From: a virus
Direction: 5' to 3' (one strand)
IMG/VR virus record: IMGVR_UViG_3300046753_000161
Span: 1 to 30,523 of that record
DNA length: 30,523 bases
A program made the translations under genes and the position numbers. A model generated the notes under the pieces. The model was not told where the DNA came from. It searched no databases and saw nothing but the letters and a program-made list of their open reading frames with translations. Below, one piece after another: positions 2,315 to 24,927 of this stretch. Position 1 is the first letter of the stretch, and every line of letters begins with the position of its first letter.

Positions 2315-2476
2315 ATGAACAAGAAAAAGAAACATGATGACAAATTAGACTTCAACGGAGGATGGTCTCCGGGTGAGGCTGCGCATCATATTTCTAAGAA
2401 GATGACACAACAAACAGTATCAGATAAAACTAAGTACTCAAGAAAGAAGAAACATAAAAATAAAGACGATGAGTAA
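2315..2476 (+). CDS. Small basic protein, 53 aa
   Basis: A short gene between the terminator and the phosphatase gene. It encodes 53 residues starting MNKKKKHDDKLDFNGGW and ending in a Lys/Arg-rich tail (KYSRKKKHKNKDDE). The stop overlaps the next start in ATGAGTAA, the tight packing seen throughout this genome, and this is the main support for it being real. The charge distribution, with basic ends around a small neutral centre, would suit a nucleic-acid or polymerase-binding peptide, but no family is recognised. A start at 2315 fits an operon that begins just after the terminator at 2297. Confidence 0.6.
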   Translation: MNKKKKHDDKLDFNGGWSPGEAAHHISKKMTQQTVSDKTKYSRKKKHKNKDDE

Positions 2477-3146
2477 AATAGTAGTAATAGGAGACATTCA
2501 CGGACACGTGAGTTGGAAGAAGATTATCGAGCTGAATCCTGATGCTACTGAGTTTGTATTCATTGGAGACTATTTTGATTCATTCTCAGTTTCACATGTA
2601 GAACAAATCTATAATTACAAAGAGATTATTGCATGGAAGGAATCTACTGATGTTAAGGTAACTATGCTGATCGGTAATCATGACTTTCACTATATGTCAG
2701 ATTGTGGTGGAAGATATGGTGGATATAATGTATGGCACGCACCGGAAATTGGTGAACTCTTAAAAGAAACTAAAGAACATTTACAAGTAGCATATCAGGT
2801 AGATAAGTTTTTATTTACGCATGCCGGCGTTTCGAAAGAATGGTATGAGGCCAATTTCCCAGAAGGTGGTAATATCCCAGAACAAATTAATGATCTATGG
2901 TCTTATGATAAGAGATCGTTTAATCATAGTGGTATGGAAATGTATGGTAATTATGATGGTGAAGGTCCAATGTGGATTAGACCTCAAGCCCTAAGACGTA
3001 ATCCTCTTAACGATACTATTATACAAGTCGTTGGGCATACTAATATGAAAGTGATCGACTATGATGATAATCACTATTTTGTTGACTCACTCCCGCATGA
3101 GTATCTTTGTATTGAAAATGGAGTCCCAGTTATCTACGAACTTTAG
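2469..3146 (+). CDS. PPP-family metallophosphatase (Ser/Thr phosphatase-like)
   Basis: A 225-residue calcineurin-like phosphoesterase. All metal-binding signatures of the PPP family are present in order: GDIHG at 8-12, GDYFD at 33-37, GNHD at 69-72, THAG at 117-120, and GHT at 189-191. This family removes phosphate from Ser/Thr (sometimes Tyr) residues with a two-metal centre, and related lambda and T4-type phage enzymes act on proteins or nucleotides. The length is close to lambda phosphatase (221 aa). It is cytoplasmic, with no signal peptide. The start overlaps the preceding small gene by eight bases. The substrate cannot be read from the sequence; bis-nucleoside tetraphosphatase activity is an alternative. 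Confidence 0.85.
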   Translation: MSKIVVIGDIHGHVSWKKIIELNPDATEFVFIGDYFDSFSVSHVEQIYNYKEIIAWKESTDVKVTMLIGNHDFHYMSDCGGRYGGYNVWHAPEIGELLKETKEHLQVAYQVDKFLFTHAGVSKEWYEANFPEGGNIPEQINDLWSYDKRSFNHSGMEMYGNYDGEGPMWIRPQALRRNPLNDTIIQVVGHTNMKVIDYDDNHYFVDSLPHEYLCIENGVPVIYEL

Positions 3147-3199: not shown

Positions 3200-3535
3200 A
3201 TGAGCAAGAACATTCTAAAAACAGCAGACGAAATTATTAACAACAGATCCGAAGAGAAAGAACGTATGTACGGTCCTTTCGAAGAAGGCATGAGACGTGC
3301 CGCGATGATCTGTTCAGGAATGACCGGTAAAGAATGGTCAGGTTCCGATATGTATGCAGCGCTTGTCGCACTTAAATTAAGCAGACATTCTTACAACTAT
3401 AAAGAAGACAATCTTCTAGATGCTGTCGCATATATCGGCGGCCTTGACAATTATATTAAGAAGTATGGCTATGGTGAAACTGAAAAGCCAATTAATTTAA
3501 CTGACGCAGACGCTGGATATGGAGACAAACAATAA
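3200..3535 (+). CDS. Conserved phage protein, DUF6378-like, 111 aa
   Basis: A 111-residue soluble helical protein. The pattern RMYGPFEEGMRRAAMI, followed by ALVALKLSRHSYNYKEDNL and LDAVAYIGGLDNY, resembles a small phage family annotated as DUF6378 that is often found near nucleotide-metabolism genes. The many Glu/Asp and His residues on predicted helices recall all-alpha NTP pyrophosphohydrolases, but I do not see a clear ExxE...ExxD arrangement, so the enzymatic idea is only a guess. The leader before the ATG is A/T-rich without a Shine-Dalgarno. The 3' end overlaps the next gene by 17 bases. Confidence 0.65.
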   Translation: MSKNILKTADEIINNRSEEKERMYGPFEEGMRRAAMICSGMTGKEWSGSDMYAALVALKLSRHSYNYKEDNLLDAVAYIGGLDNYIKKYGYGETEKPINLTDADAGYGDKQ

Positions 3536-4595
3536 CCTAGTCTATTTCACAGACCTAGAGAAAGACACTAATATACGTGTCGGTATTTCTGCACTAGTTG
3601 GAAAACTTAGTAGCAAACTAACTTCACATAAATCTGGATGGGCATTCCATCTAGCAAATCAATTAAAACATGCTGGTTACTCCAGTGTTTCTGTAATTAC
3701 AGATAACTCAGCTTGGAAGGCAGACGATTTCGACGTGATTCTTATTGAACATGGAATGGAATTTAAAGGCAATTTTAATATCTTCGGTGGGGCGAACGAT
3801 GACTTATACCATCAAATCATTAGAATGTTCGCTCCCGGTATACGTATGTATTCGCTCCACCACGATATGCCTTGTGTAGGCACTCTAATTGAGAAACGTT
3901 TAAAGACAGGTTCAGATCTTTTTAAAACCCTTGAGGTGCAAATAGAAGACGCTAAGGTAATCTGCGCTAGTATTCCCAGAGTAGATAAAATCCAAAATAC
4001 AGATAAACTCTGTTTTGGAGACTCACACAGTTTCAGTCAATATACTCCAGGTTACATGACTGATAGACATGATGGTCTAACTCTATTCGGTACTCTACGA
4101 AGAGGTATTCGCTCTTATGTACCTGAAAGCATCAAGTCACTGCGTATCTATCTAGGGAATATAGATATAAGACACCATCTTATGAGACAGGATAATCCTG
4201 CTAAATCTCTAAAAGAAATGGTATCTAATTATGAACAACAATTAATCGATTTAGAAATTGATGATATTGAAGTTATTCAGGCTCTTCCAATTGAGAATGA
4301 GTCTAGACCACTACCAAAGACTGGTTACTATAAAGATACTCCTTTTATGGGTAGTTGGGCTGAAAGAACTGAACTTGTAAAAGAGTTCAATAGATTGATA
4401 AGAGAAATGTGTACTAGAAATGAGTGGAAAACTTGGAAACATCCAGAAGTATTCTATAATTCATTTGGTGAATTAACATTTGATGTAATGGAAAAACCAA
4501 AATCAGTTCACATTGCTAGAGAGTACTATCGTTGGGATTTAGTCAATGATGAACCTAACAAAAAATTAATAAAAGTAACACAAGCATTATTTTAA
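3519..4595 (+). CDS. SGNH-hydrolase-like protein with Rossmann-like N-terminal half
   Basis: A 358-residue protein in two apparent parts. Residues 15-125 look like a nucleotide-binding alpha/beta half; the stretch DFDVILIEHG...NIFGGAND...RMYSLHHDMP is loosely reminiscent of the N-terminal half of T4 beta-glucosyltransferase (which has NFFGG followed by IYYLFTDIRLP). That resemblance is from memory and weak. Residues 160-335 carry SGNH-hydrolase blocks: GDSHS at 167-171 with candidate nucleophile Ser169, GNID at 213-216, and a late His331 in KSVHIAREYYRW. The usual Asp of the DxxH block is absent (KSVH), so catalysis is uncertain. It lies with enzymes rather than virion genes and overlaps the next small gene by one base (TAATG). 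Best described as a conserved phage protein, possibly an esterase or sugar/DNA-modifying enzyme. Confidence 0.5.
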   Translation: METNNNLVYFTDLEKDTNIRVGISALVGKLSSKLTSHKSGWAFHLANQLKHAGYSSVSVITDNSAWKADDFDVILIEHGMEFKGNFNIFGGANDDLYHQIIRMFAPGIRMYSLHHDMPCVGTLIEKRLKTGSDLFKTLEVQIEDAKVICASIPRVDKIQNTDKLCFGDSHSFSQYTPGYMTDRHDGLTLFGTLRRGIRSYVPESIKSLRIYLGNIDIRHHLMRQDNPAKSLKEMVSNYEQQLIDLEIDDIEVIQALPIENESRPLPKTGYYKDTPFMGSWAERTELVKEFNRLIREMCTRNEWKTWKHPEVFYNSFGELTFDVMEKPKSVHIAREYYRWDLVNDEPNKKLIKVTQALF

Positions 4596-4756
4596 TGAAA
4601 AGATATAAAATATTAATAACACCATTAACAAAAACCGGAGGGAGAGGAGATGCTCCATATACCATTGAATTAGAAACCGATCGACTAGAGTGGTCGATAG
4701 AGCAGTACCAAAGAAATAGAGCTGCCTTTTCATGGGAAGTTGTAGATGAAAATTAA
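4595..4756 (+). CDS. Small protein, 53 aa, unknown
   Basis: A short gene filling the gap between two larger ones. It starts in the TAATG overlap at 4593-4597 and ends inside the next gene (ATGAAAATTAA at 4746-4756). The 53 residues begin MKRYKILITPLTKTGGRG and end SWEVVDEN. The predicted fold is a short beta-alpha-beta unit with no known motif. Overlaps at both ends are the main evidence that it is translated. It may act with the neighbouring SGNH-like or helical protein. Confidence 0.6.
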   Translation: MKRYKILITPLTKTGGRGDAPYTIELETDRLEWSIEQYQRNRAAFSWEVVDEN

Positions 4757-5963
4757 AACCACAAAATATTACGACGAGTTTATTCGCTACTATGAGTTAG
4801 CACTAGACCAGCAGAAGAAATCCAACTTAGGTCATATTCCACATGCTGAGTCTAAGATGCAAGACCCTCTTATGGAGCAAATAGAGCTATATGATGTTGT
4901 AGAAAGAAAGTTTGCAGGATTTAGTCAAATTGTAAATGATGTATTTTACGGTTGGACTGAAGAACACCCATATTGGTCAAGAATGCAGGCAGGTCTTTAT
5001 ACTGAACAGCGTAAAGATGTTGCTACTAATTGGACTGGTAAACAAGAAGTCTTTGGCCTACCAGAATGGCTTTACATATTCATATTACATAGAGTATGTG
5101 GTTCTGCAATTAACTATGCAACTAAACCTAGCGGCTACCACAATACGCTTCTATTTGATCTGTGGCAATCCGATACAATAGAGCAAATGTGTGAACAGGT
5201 GAAGGCAGCTACAAAATCATTTTACACTTCAGTTGGGTATCAATTCCCAGCATTCCCAAAACCCCCACAGCCAGAAGTAAATGAAGATTCATTTGTTGGC
5301 ATGGCAAACTTTGAAGGCCCTCAGTTTACTTACAAGAGAGGTGGCGACTATTTCCTATGTGAATTTGCACCACGCCTAGCTAGAGACATGGCTAAGTACT
5401 TAGAAGAGGGTGGTAAGAAAGACCTAAGAGAATTGGGCCAATGGATGTTTGATTGGAATGTTGCAAACGGATTAAGACAATATAAATTCCAATATGCAGC
5501 AGTTTTAGCAGATGTAGCAGATTGGTTTCCACAGTATGTTAACAAGGACTCAATGTTCTACTATGGTACGAATGCAATAGAATGTATTGGTTATCTAGCA
5601 GATCCTGTAGAAGGCAAGGGTAAGAAATCAGAACCTTTCCTAGATGCAGTGATGACAAAAATATATGAACAAACAGGCAGTCTTCCGTATAACGCAGAAG
5701 ATGTAGCATGTGACTTTATTAGATGGATTGAAAACTATATGAGACCAGGAGCTGACTATGCACATATTGATATGGACGGAGTTTGGAATTCTTCAGTAAT
5801 TAAAGACCATCCATTCGGTAGACAAAAAGCAATGTTAGACTTAGGGCTAATAGAAACATTTAACGGAATGAAACATCATCCTTCCGATGATAAAATAATT
5901 GCAGAAGCTGGTATAACAGTAGAAGCATATAAGAAAAAAGTAGCAGAATTTTATGGCGCATAA
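4746..5963 (+). CDS. Helical protein of unknown family, possible nucleotide/DNA modification enzyme
   Basis: A 405-residue, mostly alpha-helical, Trp- and aromatic-rich soluble protein. I do not recognise the family with certainty. Residues 40-140 (DPLMEQIELYDVVERKF, then RMQAGLYTEQRKDVATNW and FILHRVCGSAINYATKPSGYH) recall in style the helical domains that Iyer and co-workers described in thymidine hypermodification systems (first named alpha-glutamyl/putrescinyl thymine pyrophosphorylases, later hmdU DNA kinase helical domains). No alignment was possible. Conserved-looking polar positions include His114, Arg115 and Tyr131. The gene overlaps the PLP-enzyme gene by 11 bases, so the two are probably translated together and may act on one substrate. 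Gene 56 follows. No thymidylate or dCMP hydroxymethylase gene is visible in this window, which weakens a base-modification reading. Confidence 0.45.
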   Translation: MKIKTTKYYDEFIRYYELALDQQKKSNLGHIPHAESKMQDPLMEQIELYDVVERKFAGFSQIVNDVFYGWTEEHPYWSRMQAGLYTEQRKDVATNWTGKQEVFGLPEWLYIFILHRVCGSAINYATKPSGYHNTLLFDLWQSDTIEQMCEQVKAATKSFYTSVGYQFPAFPKPPQPEVNEDSFVGMANFEGPQFTYKRGGDYFLCEFAPRLARDMAKYLEEGGKKDLRELGQWMFDWNVANGLRQYKFQYAAVLADVADWFPQYVNKDSMFYYGTNAIECIGYLADPVEGKGKKSEPFLDAVMTKIYEQTGSLPYNAEDVACDFIRWIENYMRPGADYAHIDMDGVWNSSVIKDHPFGRQKAMLDLGLIETFNGMKHHPSDDKIIAEAGITVEAYKKKVAEFYGA

Positions 5964-6849
5964 TAACCACACAGAATTACTTATGAACCAGGATCTAAAT
6001 CTGATGATGCCGAACAAACAGGCATGGTTGGATTTAGCAGGTGATTGGCAAGATCCATTTGAGGCTCCACAATTAGTAGACCATGATGGATTTAAAGTAG
6101 TCAGAGAAGACCTAATGGGTTTTGGTTCTAAGTGTAGATTTGGAGATATTCTAGTTAGTACTTGTAAACAAGATACTCTAGTCTATGTTCAACCTAGATA
6201 TGGATTTGCAGGTATCTCGCTTGCATATTTAGCAAATAAGTATAATAAGAAACTTGTACTATTTAGTCCAAGTCAAAAAGAGATTTCAGATCATCAGGCA
6301 ATTTGTGTTGAGATGGGAGCTGAAATGAAATTTAAGAGAATTGCAGCAATGCCAGTCTTAAATGCTCACGCTAAGAAATGGGCAGAAGATAATGGAGCAT
6401 TTTTTATTCCTTTAGGACTTCGCCATGAATTGGTTACAGCAGCCGCTGTGAAGGTCGCACACGATCTTGCAGAGAAACATGGTTATCCAGAAGAAGTATG
6501 GTCAGCAATATCTACTGGCGTTCTACAACGCTCTTTACAAATAGCTTGGCCTGATGCTAAGTTTAATGGAGTTGCAGTAGCAAGAAATATTAAGAAGGGT
6601 GAAAGAGGTATTGCAACTATTTGGTCACATCCAAAGGCATTTACACAAGATGTAGACCCACAATATAATCCACCATTTCCATCGGCTATGAATTACGATG
6701 CGAAGGCTTGGGAGTTCATGACAAAGCATGGAAGTCCTGGCGCCTGGTTCTGGAATGTAGGTGGAGATCCTAAGCCTGAGAAGGCTGATACAAAGTTGTT
6801 AACAAAATCGTATAGAGATTGGGGACAAGAACTTGAAACAGATAAGTAA
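5953..6849 (+). CDS. Fold-type II PLP-dependent enzyme (ACC deaminase/D-cysteine desulfhydrase-like)
   Basis: A 298-residue protein. Residues 50-65 read VREDLMGFGSKCRFGD, matching the ACC deaminase/D-cysteine desulfhydrase signature REDL..GGxKxRk; Lys60 is the expected PLP Schiff-base lysine. Two Rossmann-like segments follow: QPRYGFAGISLAYLANKY with KLVLFSP (substrate side), and IPLGLRHELVTAAAVKVA with VWSAISTGVLQRSLQIA. The last stands where family members have the Gly-rich phosphate-binding SGGTxxG loop, and the change to STGVLQR is unusual. Known relatives catalyse beta- or gamma-elimination or replacement on amino acids. In some phages PLP enzymes work on amino-acid-modified thymines, and the overlap with the upstream helical protein makes a similar role possible here, but that is inference. 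It is about 30 residues shorter than bacterial ACC deaminases. Confidence 0.7.
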   Translation: MAHNNHTELLMNQDLNLMMPNKQAWLDLAGDWQDPFEAPQLVDHDGFKVVREDLMGFGSKCRFGDILVSTCKQDTLVYVQPRYGFAGISLAYLANKYNKKLVLFSPSQKEISDHQAICVEMGAEMKFKRIAAMPVLNAHAKKWAEDNGAFFIPLGLRHELVTAAAVKVAHDLAEKHGYPEEVWSAISTGVLQRSLQIAWPDAKFNGVAVARNIKKGERGIATIWSHPKAFTQDVDPQYNPPFPSAMNYDAKAWEFMTKHGSPGAWFWNVGGDPKPEKADTKLLTKSYRDWGQELETDK

Positions 6850-6878: not shown

Positions 6879-7343
6879 ATGGCGAACGCAGATAACAAAT
6901 GTGCCGATCTCGAGGTACAAGATTTCCACTCGGAAGCAGAAGACACACTAGGCCTGATTTACAATAAACAGGTAGAACTACAAAAGCGTTTAGGTTTTGA
7001 CTTTACAGGTTGGAACTTAAAACAAATTGCAGACTTCTGGTGTGTTAACAAACATGCAATGAGTGATGAACTAAATGAAATGTTTGATGCCTTAGGAGGT
7101 ATCAACGATGGTATCGCTTCTGGTGCTTGGAAGTATTGGAAAAGCACACACAAAGAAGCAGAGAACATGAAGATCGAGGATTTGACAGAGGCAGATAAGT
7201 TAGAACTCTTTTATGAATGGATCGATGGATTGCACTTTTATATGAACTTTGCAATTTCTATTGGTATGACTTCTAAAGATATTGTTAACTTGTACATGGC
7301 GAAGAACGCAGAAAACCATGACCGTCAAAACCGAGGATATTAA
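6879..7343 (+). CDS. 56: dUTPase/dCTPase, T4 gp56-like
   Basis: A 154-residue all-alpha nucleoside triphosphate pyrophosphohydrolase. The C-terminal half aligns closely with T4 gp56 (171 aa): WKYWKSTHKEAENM, then LGLGM-type ISIGM, and the ending KNAENHDRQNRGY against KNKENFARQDRGY in T4. The expected magnesium ligands are E64xxE67 and E113xxD116. The enzyme converts dUTP (and in T4 dCTP) to the monophosphate, keeping uracil out of DNA and supplying dUMP for dTTP synthesis. Whether dCTP is also used cannot be told from sequence. The gene sits directly before the polymerase, sharing a base at TAATG. The A-rich leader 6850-6878 has no Shine-Dalgarno. Confidence 0.9.
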   Translation: MANADNKCADLEVQDFHSEAEDTLGLIYNKQVELQKRLGFDFTGWNLKQIADFWCVNKHAMSDELNEMFDALGGINDGIASGAWKYWKSTHKEAENMKIEDLTEADKLELFYEWIDGLHFYMNFAISIGMTSKDIVNLYMAKNAENHDRQNRGY

Positions 7344-15411: not shown

Positions 15412-15700
15412 TAAGGATAAGCTACCGATCAAGTATATCCTAGGGATAGAAAAAGATCTACCAGATTATCCAACCGCTCTAGATGTTTTACAAGCTGAAG
15501 TAAAACTGTGTAATAGAAACCCAGACAGATATAAAGGTAGCTTTACCTACCATGCATTAAAAACTTATAGATTCCCAGAATCTGAACCAGATAAAATTTT
15601 AGAATCTGCAAAAGAATTGGTAATATTAGGTTTATGTGAACAAACAAACGAAGAGCCCGGTAAAGAGGCTTTTAAAATTTTAATAAACCCATTCGAATGA
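15401..15700 (+). CDS. Unknown protein, 99 aa, between uvsX and oxygenase gene
   Basis: A 99-residue protein starting MKINKDKLPIKYILGIEK. The middle (TYHALKTYRFPESEPDKILESAKELVILGLCEQ) looks like a small helical domain that could be a winged-helix fold, with a C-terminal beta hairpin (AFKILINPFE). I do not recognise it. It overlaps uvsX by 11 bases and the next gene by four (ATGA), so it is translated in the replication operon. Confidence 0.75.
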   Translation: MKINKDKLPIKYILGIEKDLPDYPTALDVLQAEVKLCNRNPDRYKGSFTYHALKTYRFPESEPDKILESAKELVILGLCEQTNEEPGKEAFKILINPFE

Positions 15701-16278
15701 TAGCAGTATTTGACAATTTCATAAAAGATCCGACTCTATTGAAAGAGATCGAGATAAACTATAAACATATTTTTAGAGATCCAGGTAAGTATAAGTACTG
15801 GAATGGTTGGTGGAATACTCCAGCAAATAATACAACTAAAAAAGTAATTCAATATGTATGGGGAGAGAATTGCCCTATTTCACAAGGCTATAGTATTGAT
15901 GGCTTTGAGTATTGGACTGGTATTCAAACAGCAGCAAATATTGAAGATGGCTGGAGTGATAACCTAAATATACATTTTGATAAAGATGAAGCCTGGTTTG
16001 AAAAAACTGAAGAAGTTGTAAGCCCAATTATAGGTAGTGTATATTATCCAGCAGGACAAGATTTTGATGGAGGTGATCTTGCAATATACACAGAAGGCCG
16101 AGATTCGACACCAGAGGTCATCAAAGCAAAACCTAATAGATTTATCATCTTTAAAGCTGGGAACGATCTACACACAGTCCAGCAAGTTACACGAGGTATT
16201 AGAAATGCTATTGCAATTAACTTATGGGAAGATGAACCTTATTCTAAACAAAAAGGACATTTAGTCATAGAACAATAA
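15697..16278 (+). CDS. 2-oxoglutarate/Fe(II)-dependent oxygenase
   Basis: A 193-residue double-stranded beta-helix dioxygenase of the prolyl-4-hydroxylase-like superfamily. Iron ligands are His93 and Asp95 (IHFDKDE) and distal His159 (DLHTVQQV); Arg169 (RGIRNAIAINLW) is placed to bind the 2-oxoglutarate carboxylate. The core strand pattern VYYPAGQDFDGGDLAIY is typical. Such enzymes hydroxylate proteins, small molecules or nucleic-acid bases. T4-like marine phages often carry several of unknown target. This one sits among recombination and helicase genes, so a nucleic-acid or replication-protein target is possible but unproven. It overlaps the upstream gene by four bases and precedes gene 41 by seven. 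Confidence 0.85.
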   Translation: MIAVFDNFIKDPTLLKEIEINYKHIFRDPGKYKYWNGWWNTPANNTTKKVIQYVWGENCPISQGYSIDGFEYWTGIQTAANIEDGWSDNLNIHFDKDEAWFEKTEEVVSPIIGSVYYPAGQDFDGGDLAIYTEGRDSTPEVIKAKPNRFIIFKAGNDLHTVQQVTRGIRNAIAINLWEDEPYSKQKGHLVIEQ

Positions 16279-24070: not shown

Positions 24071-24448
24071 GTGCCTAGAAAAAAGAATTATTTAAACAAT
24101 AGAGATTTATACGATCAGATCGTATTATCTAAAGAGCAAGATAAATTAACACCCGATGCAGAAAAAATGCTAATATTACTCTCTGAAAGAGCGATTAGAA
24201 AATTAGTTTACCTGAATGAGGATGATAGAAATGACTGCTTACAATTTGCAATATTAGATTTATTAAAGTATTGGAGAAACTTTAACCCTAAGTATACTAA
24301 TGCATTTGCCTACTTTACAGAAATAGCAAAGCGTGGTTATGCAAAGGGCTGGAATAAAATACATCCGACTAAATATAAAAATACAATGTCAATGGATCGT
24401 ATCAACACTAAGAATAGTGATGGTGAATCCGGTATGTTTAATATCTAA
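24071..24448 (+). CDS. 55: Late-promoter sigma factor, T4 gp55-like
   Basis: A 125-residue protein starting at GTG 24071. The body follows T4 gp55: YLNNRDLYDQIVLSK (T4 YVNNKELLQAIIDWK), then a sigma-region-2-like stretch DDRNDCLQFAILDLLKYWRN, FNPKYTNAFAYFTEIAKRG (T4 FDETKYKNPHAYITQACFN) and a basic end. In T4, gp55 replaces the host sigma factor to read TATAAATA promoters together with the sliding clamp and gp33. The GATATATAA boxes nearby are the likely target. It is 60 residues shorter than T4 gp55 and ends GESGMFNI; the hydrophobic tail could replace the clamp-binding SLDFLYE of T4 and resembles the MFDF end of T4 gp43. It overlaps gene 4 at TAATG. Confidence 0.85.
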   Translation: MPRKKNYLNNRDLYDQIVLSKEQDKLTPDAEKMLILLSERAIRKLVYLNEDDRNDCLQFAILDLLKYWRNFNPKYTNAFAYFTEIAKRGYAKGWNKIHPTKYKNTMSMDRINTKNSDGESGMFNI

Positions 24449-24927
24449 TGTCAATAAAGAACTTAAAACCCAGCGGTAACTCTGGATTTGTACAAGGTTA
24501 TTATACGCCTGAAAATCCTGATAAATATATTGGTCCAACACCAATCATTTATCGTTCCTCCTGGGAAAGAAAGTTTTGTATTATGTGTGATACTAAAGAA
24601 AATGTATTAAAATGGTCTTCCGAGCCGGTTAAAATTAAATACCGCTCAACTATGGATAAGAGAGAACATACTTATTATCCAGACTTCTATATGAAAACTA
24701 AAGGTACAAATGAGGAAGGTCCTATTGAATGGCTAGTTGAAATTAAGCCAGAAGCACAGATCAAAAAACCACTACCCCCTAAAACAAAATCTAAAAAAGC
24801 ACTTAATTCATATAAGTTTTTAGCAGAACAATATATTAAGAATAGAGATAAGTATGCCTATGCAAAGGCATGGTGTGAAAATAGAAAATGGAGGTTTATC
24901 GTCTTAACAGAAAAAACTCTTAAATAA
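24448..24927 (+). CDS. 4: Head completion nuclease, T4 gp4-like
   Basis: A 159-residue protein (T4 gp4 about 150 aa). The signature YRSSWERKF at 35-43, with CDTKENVLKWSSEP following, is strongly gp4-like. The catalytic layout matches a PD-(D/E)xK nuclease: Glu40, Asp79 (YYPDFYM), and Glu98-x-Lys100 (LVEIKPEAQ). gp4 acts after packaging to finish the head before tail joining. A Lys/Pro-rich loop (KKPLPPKTKSKK) separates the core from the C-terminal helices. It overlaps both neighbours at TAATG, so 55, 4 and the next gene form one translational unit. Confidence 0.9.
   Translation: MSIKNLKPSGNSGFVQGYYTPENPDKYIGPTPIIYRSSWERKFCIMCDTKENVLKWSSEPVKIKYRSTMDKREHTYYPDFYMKTKGTNEEGPIEWLVEIKPEAQIKKPLPPKTKSKKALNSYKFLAEQYIKNRDKYAYAKAWCENRKWRFIVLTEKTLK

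Follow-up and report, generated by a model that had tools for sequence, protein, structure and literature searches.

This locus raises the question of what an uncultured phage does with a helical protein and a PLP enzyme encoded by overlapping genes. The window, by which we mean the whole stretch of 30,523 nucleotides analysed, is a fragment (30.5 kb) of the genome of an uncultured T4-like myovirus, with genes for portal gp20, gp23, a split DNA polymerase, UvsX and SbcCD; amid its T4-like structural genes lies the N-terminal domain of a TnsA-like endonuclease (24448–24927; PF08722, E 1.1e-18). A sequence-only reading had taken the pair, with an SGNH-like gene, a phosphatase and a dUTPase beside it, for a possible new nucleotide or DNA modification pathway, by analogy with phage thymidine hypermodification, and had proposed HMM and structure searches of both proteins and an analysis of their co-occurrence.

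An overlapping gene pair and its linked neighbours

The gene of the helical protein, here called hel (4746–5963, 405 aa), and that of the PLP enzyme (5953–6849, 298 aa) lie on the + strand and overlap by 11 nt (ATGGCGCATAA). Among distinct relatives the overlap is 11 nt in 24 and 14 nt in 9, and in most of the remainder extra genes separate the two. Both open reading frames are kept across IMG/VR (75 hel loci and 65 PLP loci, with at least 513 relatives of hel), and they are therefore genes rather than chance; the overlapping pair described from the sequence alone is real.

A third member of the module, an SGNH-family protein (3519–4595, + strand) whose N-terminal half has no family assignment, is recognised by its linkage to hel, by a homologue fused to a further domain in phage 44RR, and by its invariant residues, namely GDSH, a G-I-D-x-R-H-H (GxIDxRHH) block and a late C-terminal His, which bear out the earlier naming of an SGNH-like gene. 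Among the 43 distinct hel loci that have enough flank, the PLP gene accompanies hel in 39 and an SGNH gene lies within 6 kb of it in 40. Since this linkage persists across several gene orders, hel, PLP and SGNH form a real module, and the co-occurrence analysis comes out in favour of the pairing. A second helical protein, hel2, is present at 19 of the same 43 loci. The usual upstream neighbour is a DUF6378 protein (3200–3535, + strand), whose gene in the relative G003 adjoins a dCMP-hydroxymethylase-like gene and a copy of the SGNH gene. The phosphatase noted beside the pair is present (2469–3146), but among relatives it is only a variable neighbour.

Homology of the PLP enzyme and fold of the helical protein

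The PLP enzyme matches PF00291 (E 4.5e-6, under the curated cut-off) and the PHROG family 'threonine dehydratase' (E 1.4e-41), and its structure is that of fold-type II, with D-cysteine desulfhydrase, threonine deaminase and O-phosphoserine sulfhydrylase as the closest folds. The predicted Schiff-base lysine, Lys60 (codon 6130–6132, + strand), does not vary among 28 homologues, nor among all 31 once M6-type relatives are included, in agreement with the fold type and the lysine first named from the sequence. The proposed HMM and structure searches place the enzyme in the hypermodification subfamily of phage M6: hhalign aligns it with the M6 PLP enzyme at a probability of 99.7% (E 2.8e-26), an HMM of the M6 family finds it at E 2.8e-15, and it shares with M6-type enzymes the C-terminal signature PFPxxxxYDxKAW...FWNxG, which in the window reads PFPxxxxYDxKAW...FWNVG (6673–6762, + strand). 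The phosphate-loop region (S187-T188-G189; 6511–6519, + strand) has S-T-G-V against S-S-G-T in the M6 family, with S187 and G189 conserved between them. Judged by its sequence, the enzyme is clearly a homologue of the M6 PLP enzyme, well beyond a shared fold.

PHROG and Pfam name the enzyme only as threonine-dehydratase-like, which would suit a pair that acts off DNA, in the infected cell's metabolism of small molecules, nucleotides or tRNA. We consider such a role very improbable in view of the fold of hel described below, the M6 subfamily of the PLP enzyme and the dCMP hydroxymethylase genes to which the pair is linked in several contigs.

In M6 the PLP gene starts directly after the gene of the PF18724 transferase. 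Of the known phages compared, M6 and ViI have a PALP enzyme, and none was found in phiW-14, T4, 44RR or Aes012. Lee et al. are said to have described, in 2022, the PLP enzymes of thymidine hypermodification pathways as decarboxylases. The bases of M6 and ViI, 5-(2-aminoethyl)deoxyuridine and 5-(2-aminoethoxy)methyldeoxyuridine respectively, carry a primary amine from a short chain, and that of phiW-14 is putrescinylthymine (PMC6449724). Relatives of the window enzyme were also seen in Erythrobacter phage R6L (L137, 4885–7311) and Microcystis phage Mae-JY30 (L138, 6378–8696), fused with or adjacent to a fragment of an N6/N4 DNA methylase and to genes annotated ParB/sulfiredoxin, and in R6L a gene annotated as PAPS reductase lies nearby; these loci are possibly another DNA modification system. 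One module phage (G009) encodes a second, cysteine-synthase-like PLP enzyme directly 5' of its canonical thymidylate synthase (L139, 581–1474).

The AlphaFold2 model of hel (pLDDT 82, pTM 0.83) confirms the helical content claimed for the 405-residue protein. Searched with Foldseek against BFVD, the model matches an 'Amino acid:DNA transferase domain-containing protein' (57% identity, E 2.5e-38); this name is a database annotation whose source could not be traced, given that hel goes undetected by PF18724 itself. Further matches are two unnamed proteins, a second AADT-named protein (E 1.5e-3) and two 5-hmdU DNA kinases, from SP10 (prob 0.97) and phiW-14 (prob 0.92), both with a high rmsd of ~9. 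Every informative name in the best nine matches is either amino-acid:DNA transferase or 5-hmdU DNA kinase, and by this search hel has the fold of the AADT/HMUDK helical superfamily.

Sequence comparisons gave no such link. Neither PF18724 (ADDT, amino-acid:DNA transferase) nor PF18723 (HMUDK_hel, 5-hmdU DNA kinase helical domain) matched any of the 23 records at E≤1, with nothing at the curated cut-off; as a control, both models find the proteins of M6, ViI and phiW-14. Searches with hel against Pfam, PHROG and the PDB sequences came back empty, tblastn against 50,697 phage records found neither a match nor a cultured-phage homologue, and hhalign of hel against single sequences of M6 ADDT and hel2 found nothing, while a PDB fold search gave only weak matches to 8-oxoguanine glycosylase. 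Compared with the ADDT and HMUDK_hel family alignments, the hel profile scored inside the shuffled range (40 shuffles), in a test by which the ADDT and HMUDK_hel profiles are themselves mutually indistinguishable from noise, and which is coarse because several shuffle sets each hold one outlier above 130, read as a gap artefact.

Residues 248–277 of hel (5487–5576, + strand) contain the invariant residues F-Q-Y-x-A-x3-D...F-x-Y-G-x-N-A, which we propose, from a match by eye, as the counterpart of F-x-A-Y-Q-x3-D...GPG[AC] in HMUDK_hel; the spacing is identical to that in the HMUDK_hel domain of ViI (F to D 8, D to G 18). As sequence profiles give no support, the family assignment of hel as a predicted amino-acid:DNA transferase-like enzyme rests on its fold, the spacing of this one motif and its context. 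Of the kinase and transferase relationships that had been anticipated for hel, the structure search recovered what PF18724, PF18723 and the profiles did not. The sole pair to stand out among the family-alignment profile comparisons was hel and hel2, with a score of 25.0, above all 40 column shuffles (maximum 23.6) and in register over the motif region. Like hel, hel2 had no tblastn match in the phage collection, and it was not found in many module contigs. The fold matches of hel, the M6-type PLP enzyme and the linkage of the module, together with the fusion in 44RR, make a DNA hypermodification module of the helical transferase plus PLP type well supported.

Gene context and the target base

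The gene next to PLP (6879–7343, + strand) encodes a T4 gp56-like dCTPase/dUTPase (31% identity to T4 gp56, E 1e-23). The dUTPase recorded beside the pair is thus present, with a dUTPase_2 Pfam match, but it is a homologue of the T4 dCTPase/dUTPase. Homologues of thymidylate synthase (TS) were sought in 38 module contigs. Our first reading of the module was hmU chemistry, because a TS homologue adjoins hel, and this was rejected after comparison of the residue at position 177. A divergent TS homologue occurs in 16 contigs, and all 16 copies have Asp at the position of N177 in E. coli TS, as does T4 gp42 (dCMP hydroxymethylase); in canonical TS copies, as in the hmdUMP enzymes of M6, ViI and phiW-14, the residue is Asn. 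It is documented that Asp here marks dCMP specificity and phage contigs with modified cytosine (PMC8670742). No hydroxymethylase of the hmdUMP (Asn) type turned up, the TS homologues of module contigs being either canonical or of the Asp type, and one of them (L045) has 55–63% identity to gp42-type enzymes among the best phage matches listed.

In three contigs (G004, G019 and G034) genes for a dCMP hydroxymethylase and a dCMP deaminase lie directly 5' of hel. A UDG-like ORF is placed between deaminase and hel in G034, overlapping both, and an ORF that is UDG-like by eye lies between hydroxymethylase and hel in G005. In the window's own clade (G001, G009, G023) the Asp-type enzyme is 87–113 kb upstream, and in G014 it is 44 kb downstream; tabulated contigs without an Asp-type match are (nearly) uninformative because their upstream reach is at most 90.3 kb (G007). 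The 30.5 kb of the window hold no TS homologue, and of the T4-type 5hmC (5-hydroxymethylcytosine) pathway the gp56 homologue is in the window and the gp42-type enzyme only in related contigs, from which we infer a dCMP hydroxymethylase for the window genome. AGT and TAGT had no match in nine module contigs. In G023 (256,444 bases) a thymidylate synthase match is split across both contig ends, suggesting a complete, circular record that carries hel, hel2, a canonical TS and the Asp-type homologue.

This gene context points to cytosine, not thymine, as the base that is decorated, and the substrate of the module is likely 5hmC. Hypermodification of thymidine via 5-hydroxymethyluracil, as in M6, ViI and phiW-14, would accord with the thymidine-hypermodifying phages from which the nearest named folds of hel and the subfamily of its partner come, yet it seems decidedly improbable when module contigs show canonical or Asp-type TS homologues and the window itself encodes a gp56-type dCTPase. 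The modification pathway first hypothesised therefore survives as a hypermodification module, and its analogy with thymidine is probably wrong as to the target base. A 2OG-Fe(II) oxygenase-like gene in the window (15697–16278) would be the candidate T-hydroxylating oxygenase were thymidine the target.

A putative pathway and its relation to known systems

On balance we favour the view that the pair forms the centre of a module for post-replicative, amino-acid-derived hypermodification of 5hmC, in which hel would act as the transferase and the PLP enzyme as the decarboxylase. The gp56-like dCTPase would remove dCTP, a T4 gp42-type dCMP hydroxymethylase encoded elsewhere in the genome would make hm-dCMP, and 5-hydroxymethyl-dC would replace dC in new DNA. 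The hydroxymethyl group would then be activated in DNA by hel2 or another protein; no activating kinase was identified, which counts against the amino-acid reading of 5hmC, as do the lack of a sequence-level match of hel to PF18724 or PF18723, the missing TS homologue in the 30.5 kb, the sub-cut-off HMUDK_hel match in 44RR (described below) and the failure to find hel2 in many contigs. Coupling of an amino acid to the activated group would fall to hel, and the PLP enzyme would tailor it once attached, decarboxylation being the likeliest reaction, to leave an aminoalkyl group on cytosine, with the SGNH protein taking part at some step. Variable genes in or near the module, which are CitG-like (L112, 4876–5670), NAD-dependent epimerase (L052, 11072–12034), LOG/lysine-decarboxylase-like (L098, 7320–7994) and cytidylyltransferase-like (L091, 169–651), may alter the donor or the final group.

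To our knowledge, the cytosine decorations of phage DNA are sugars and a carbamoyl group, and amino-acid-derived groups are known on thymine. Amino-acid-modified 5hmC or cytosine was not reported in the literature searched, the scope of which left out most subscription journals, a negative that does not prove its absence. That uncultured T4-like phages have the first aminoalkyl cytosine hypermodification, made by an AADT-like helical enzyme, an M6-type PLP enzyme and an SGNH protein, and that a related helical/SGNH fusion would explain a putative 5hmC decoration in Aeromonas phages such as 44RR, is a proposal for which we see the balance as nearly even. If true, amino-acid chemistry on 5hmC would be a new class of modified base, the module would point to enzymes for amine labelling of 5hmC, and there would be a testable answer to the question of how 5hmC is protected in those T4-like phages that, like 44RR, lack glucosyltransferases (PMC2993671).

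The closest known arrangement is that of M6 (5-hmdU kinase, PF18724 transferase and PLP enzyme), where, as in the window, a helical transferase-type gene is followed by a PLP gene of the same subfamily. The module differs in that hel is missed by PF18724 and PF18723, the hydroxymethylases of its phages are of the dCMP type, it includes SGNH and hel2 in addition, and the module contigs tested have no HMUDK_hel match. ViI resembles the module phages in being a myovirus that encodes helical proteins of the kinase and transferase kind together with a PLP enzyme of fold-type II, but the specificity position of its TS homologue is Asn and its PLP enzyme is 424 aa long with a different C terminus. 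With the T4 5hmC pathway (gp56, gp42 and glucosyltransferases) the module shares the gp56-like dCTPase of the window and the gp42-like enzymes of its relatives, the helical/PLP/SGNH module standing in place of AGT and TAGT. The 5-carbamoyloxymethylcytosine system likewise pairs a transferase with an Asp-type TS homologue and decorates 5hmC, through a carbamoyltransferase of an unrelated family (PMC8670742).

Homologues of the SGNH protein occur in T4-like Aeromonas phages. ORF233c of 44RR2.8t belongs to the same SGNH family and carries, as a fusion, a C-terminal HMUDK_hel-like domain, which matches PF18723 at E 0.0036 with 17.2 of 25 bits, under the Pfam cut-off, and contains the motif GMGPYYCYHF...AGPGA. 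In 44RR, genes 42 and 56 are present without glucosyltransferase genes, and decoration of 5hmC in phages of this type is an open question (PMC2993671). As far as these matches indicate, ORF233c joins the SGNH protein and a putative helical hypermodification domain in a 5hmC phage; 44RR differs from the module phages in that no PALP enzyme was found and in that the helical domain of ORF233c is not detectably hel-like by profile.

In Aeromonas phage Aes012 (L309, 2761–6032) the SGNH homologue lies beside a UDP-galactopyranose mutase gene and a glycosyltransferase-like gene, the latter labelled from the annotation of its relatives, and sugar decoration of 5hmC is possible in phages of this type. 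Such surroundings, as well as the desulfhydrase, deaminase and sulfhydrylase folds nearest to the PLP enzyme, would fit a module that decorates 5hmC but in which the group added by hel is not an amino acid, or the PLP enzyme serves just to supply hel or SGNH with a donor, made for instance through elimination or replacement at a free amino acid. We think this unlikely, since in sequence the PLP enzyme is closest to its M6 counterpart, which belongs to an amino-acid-based pathway.
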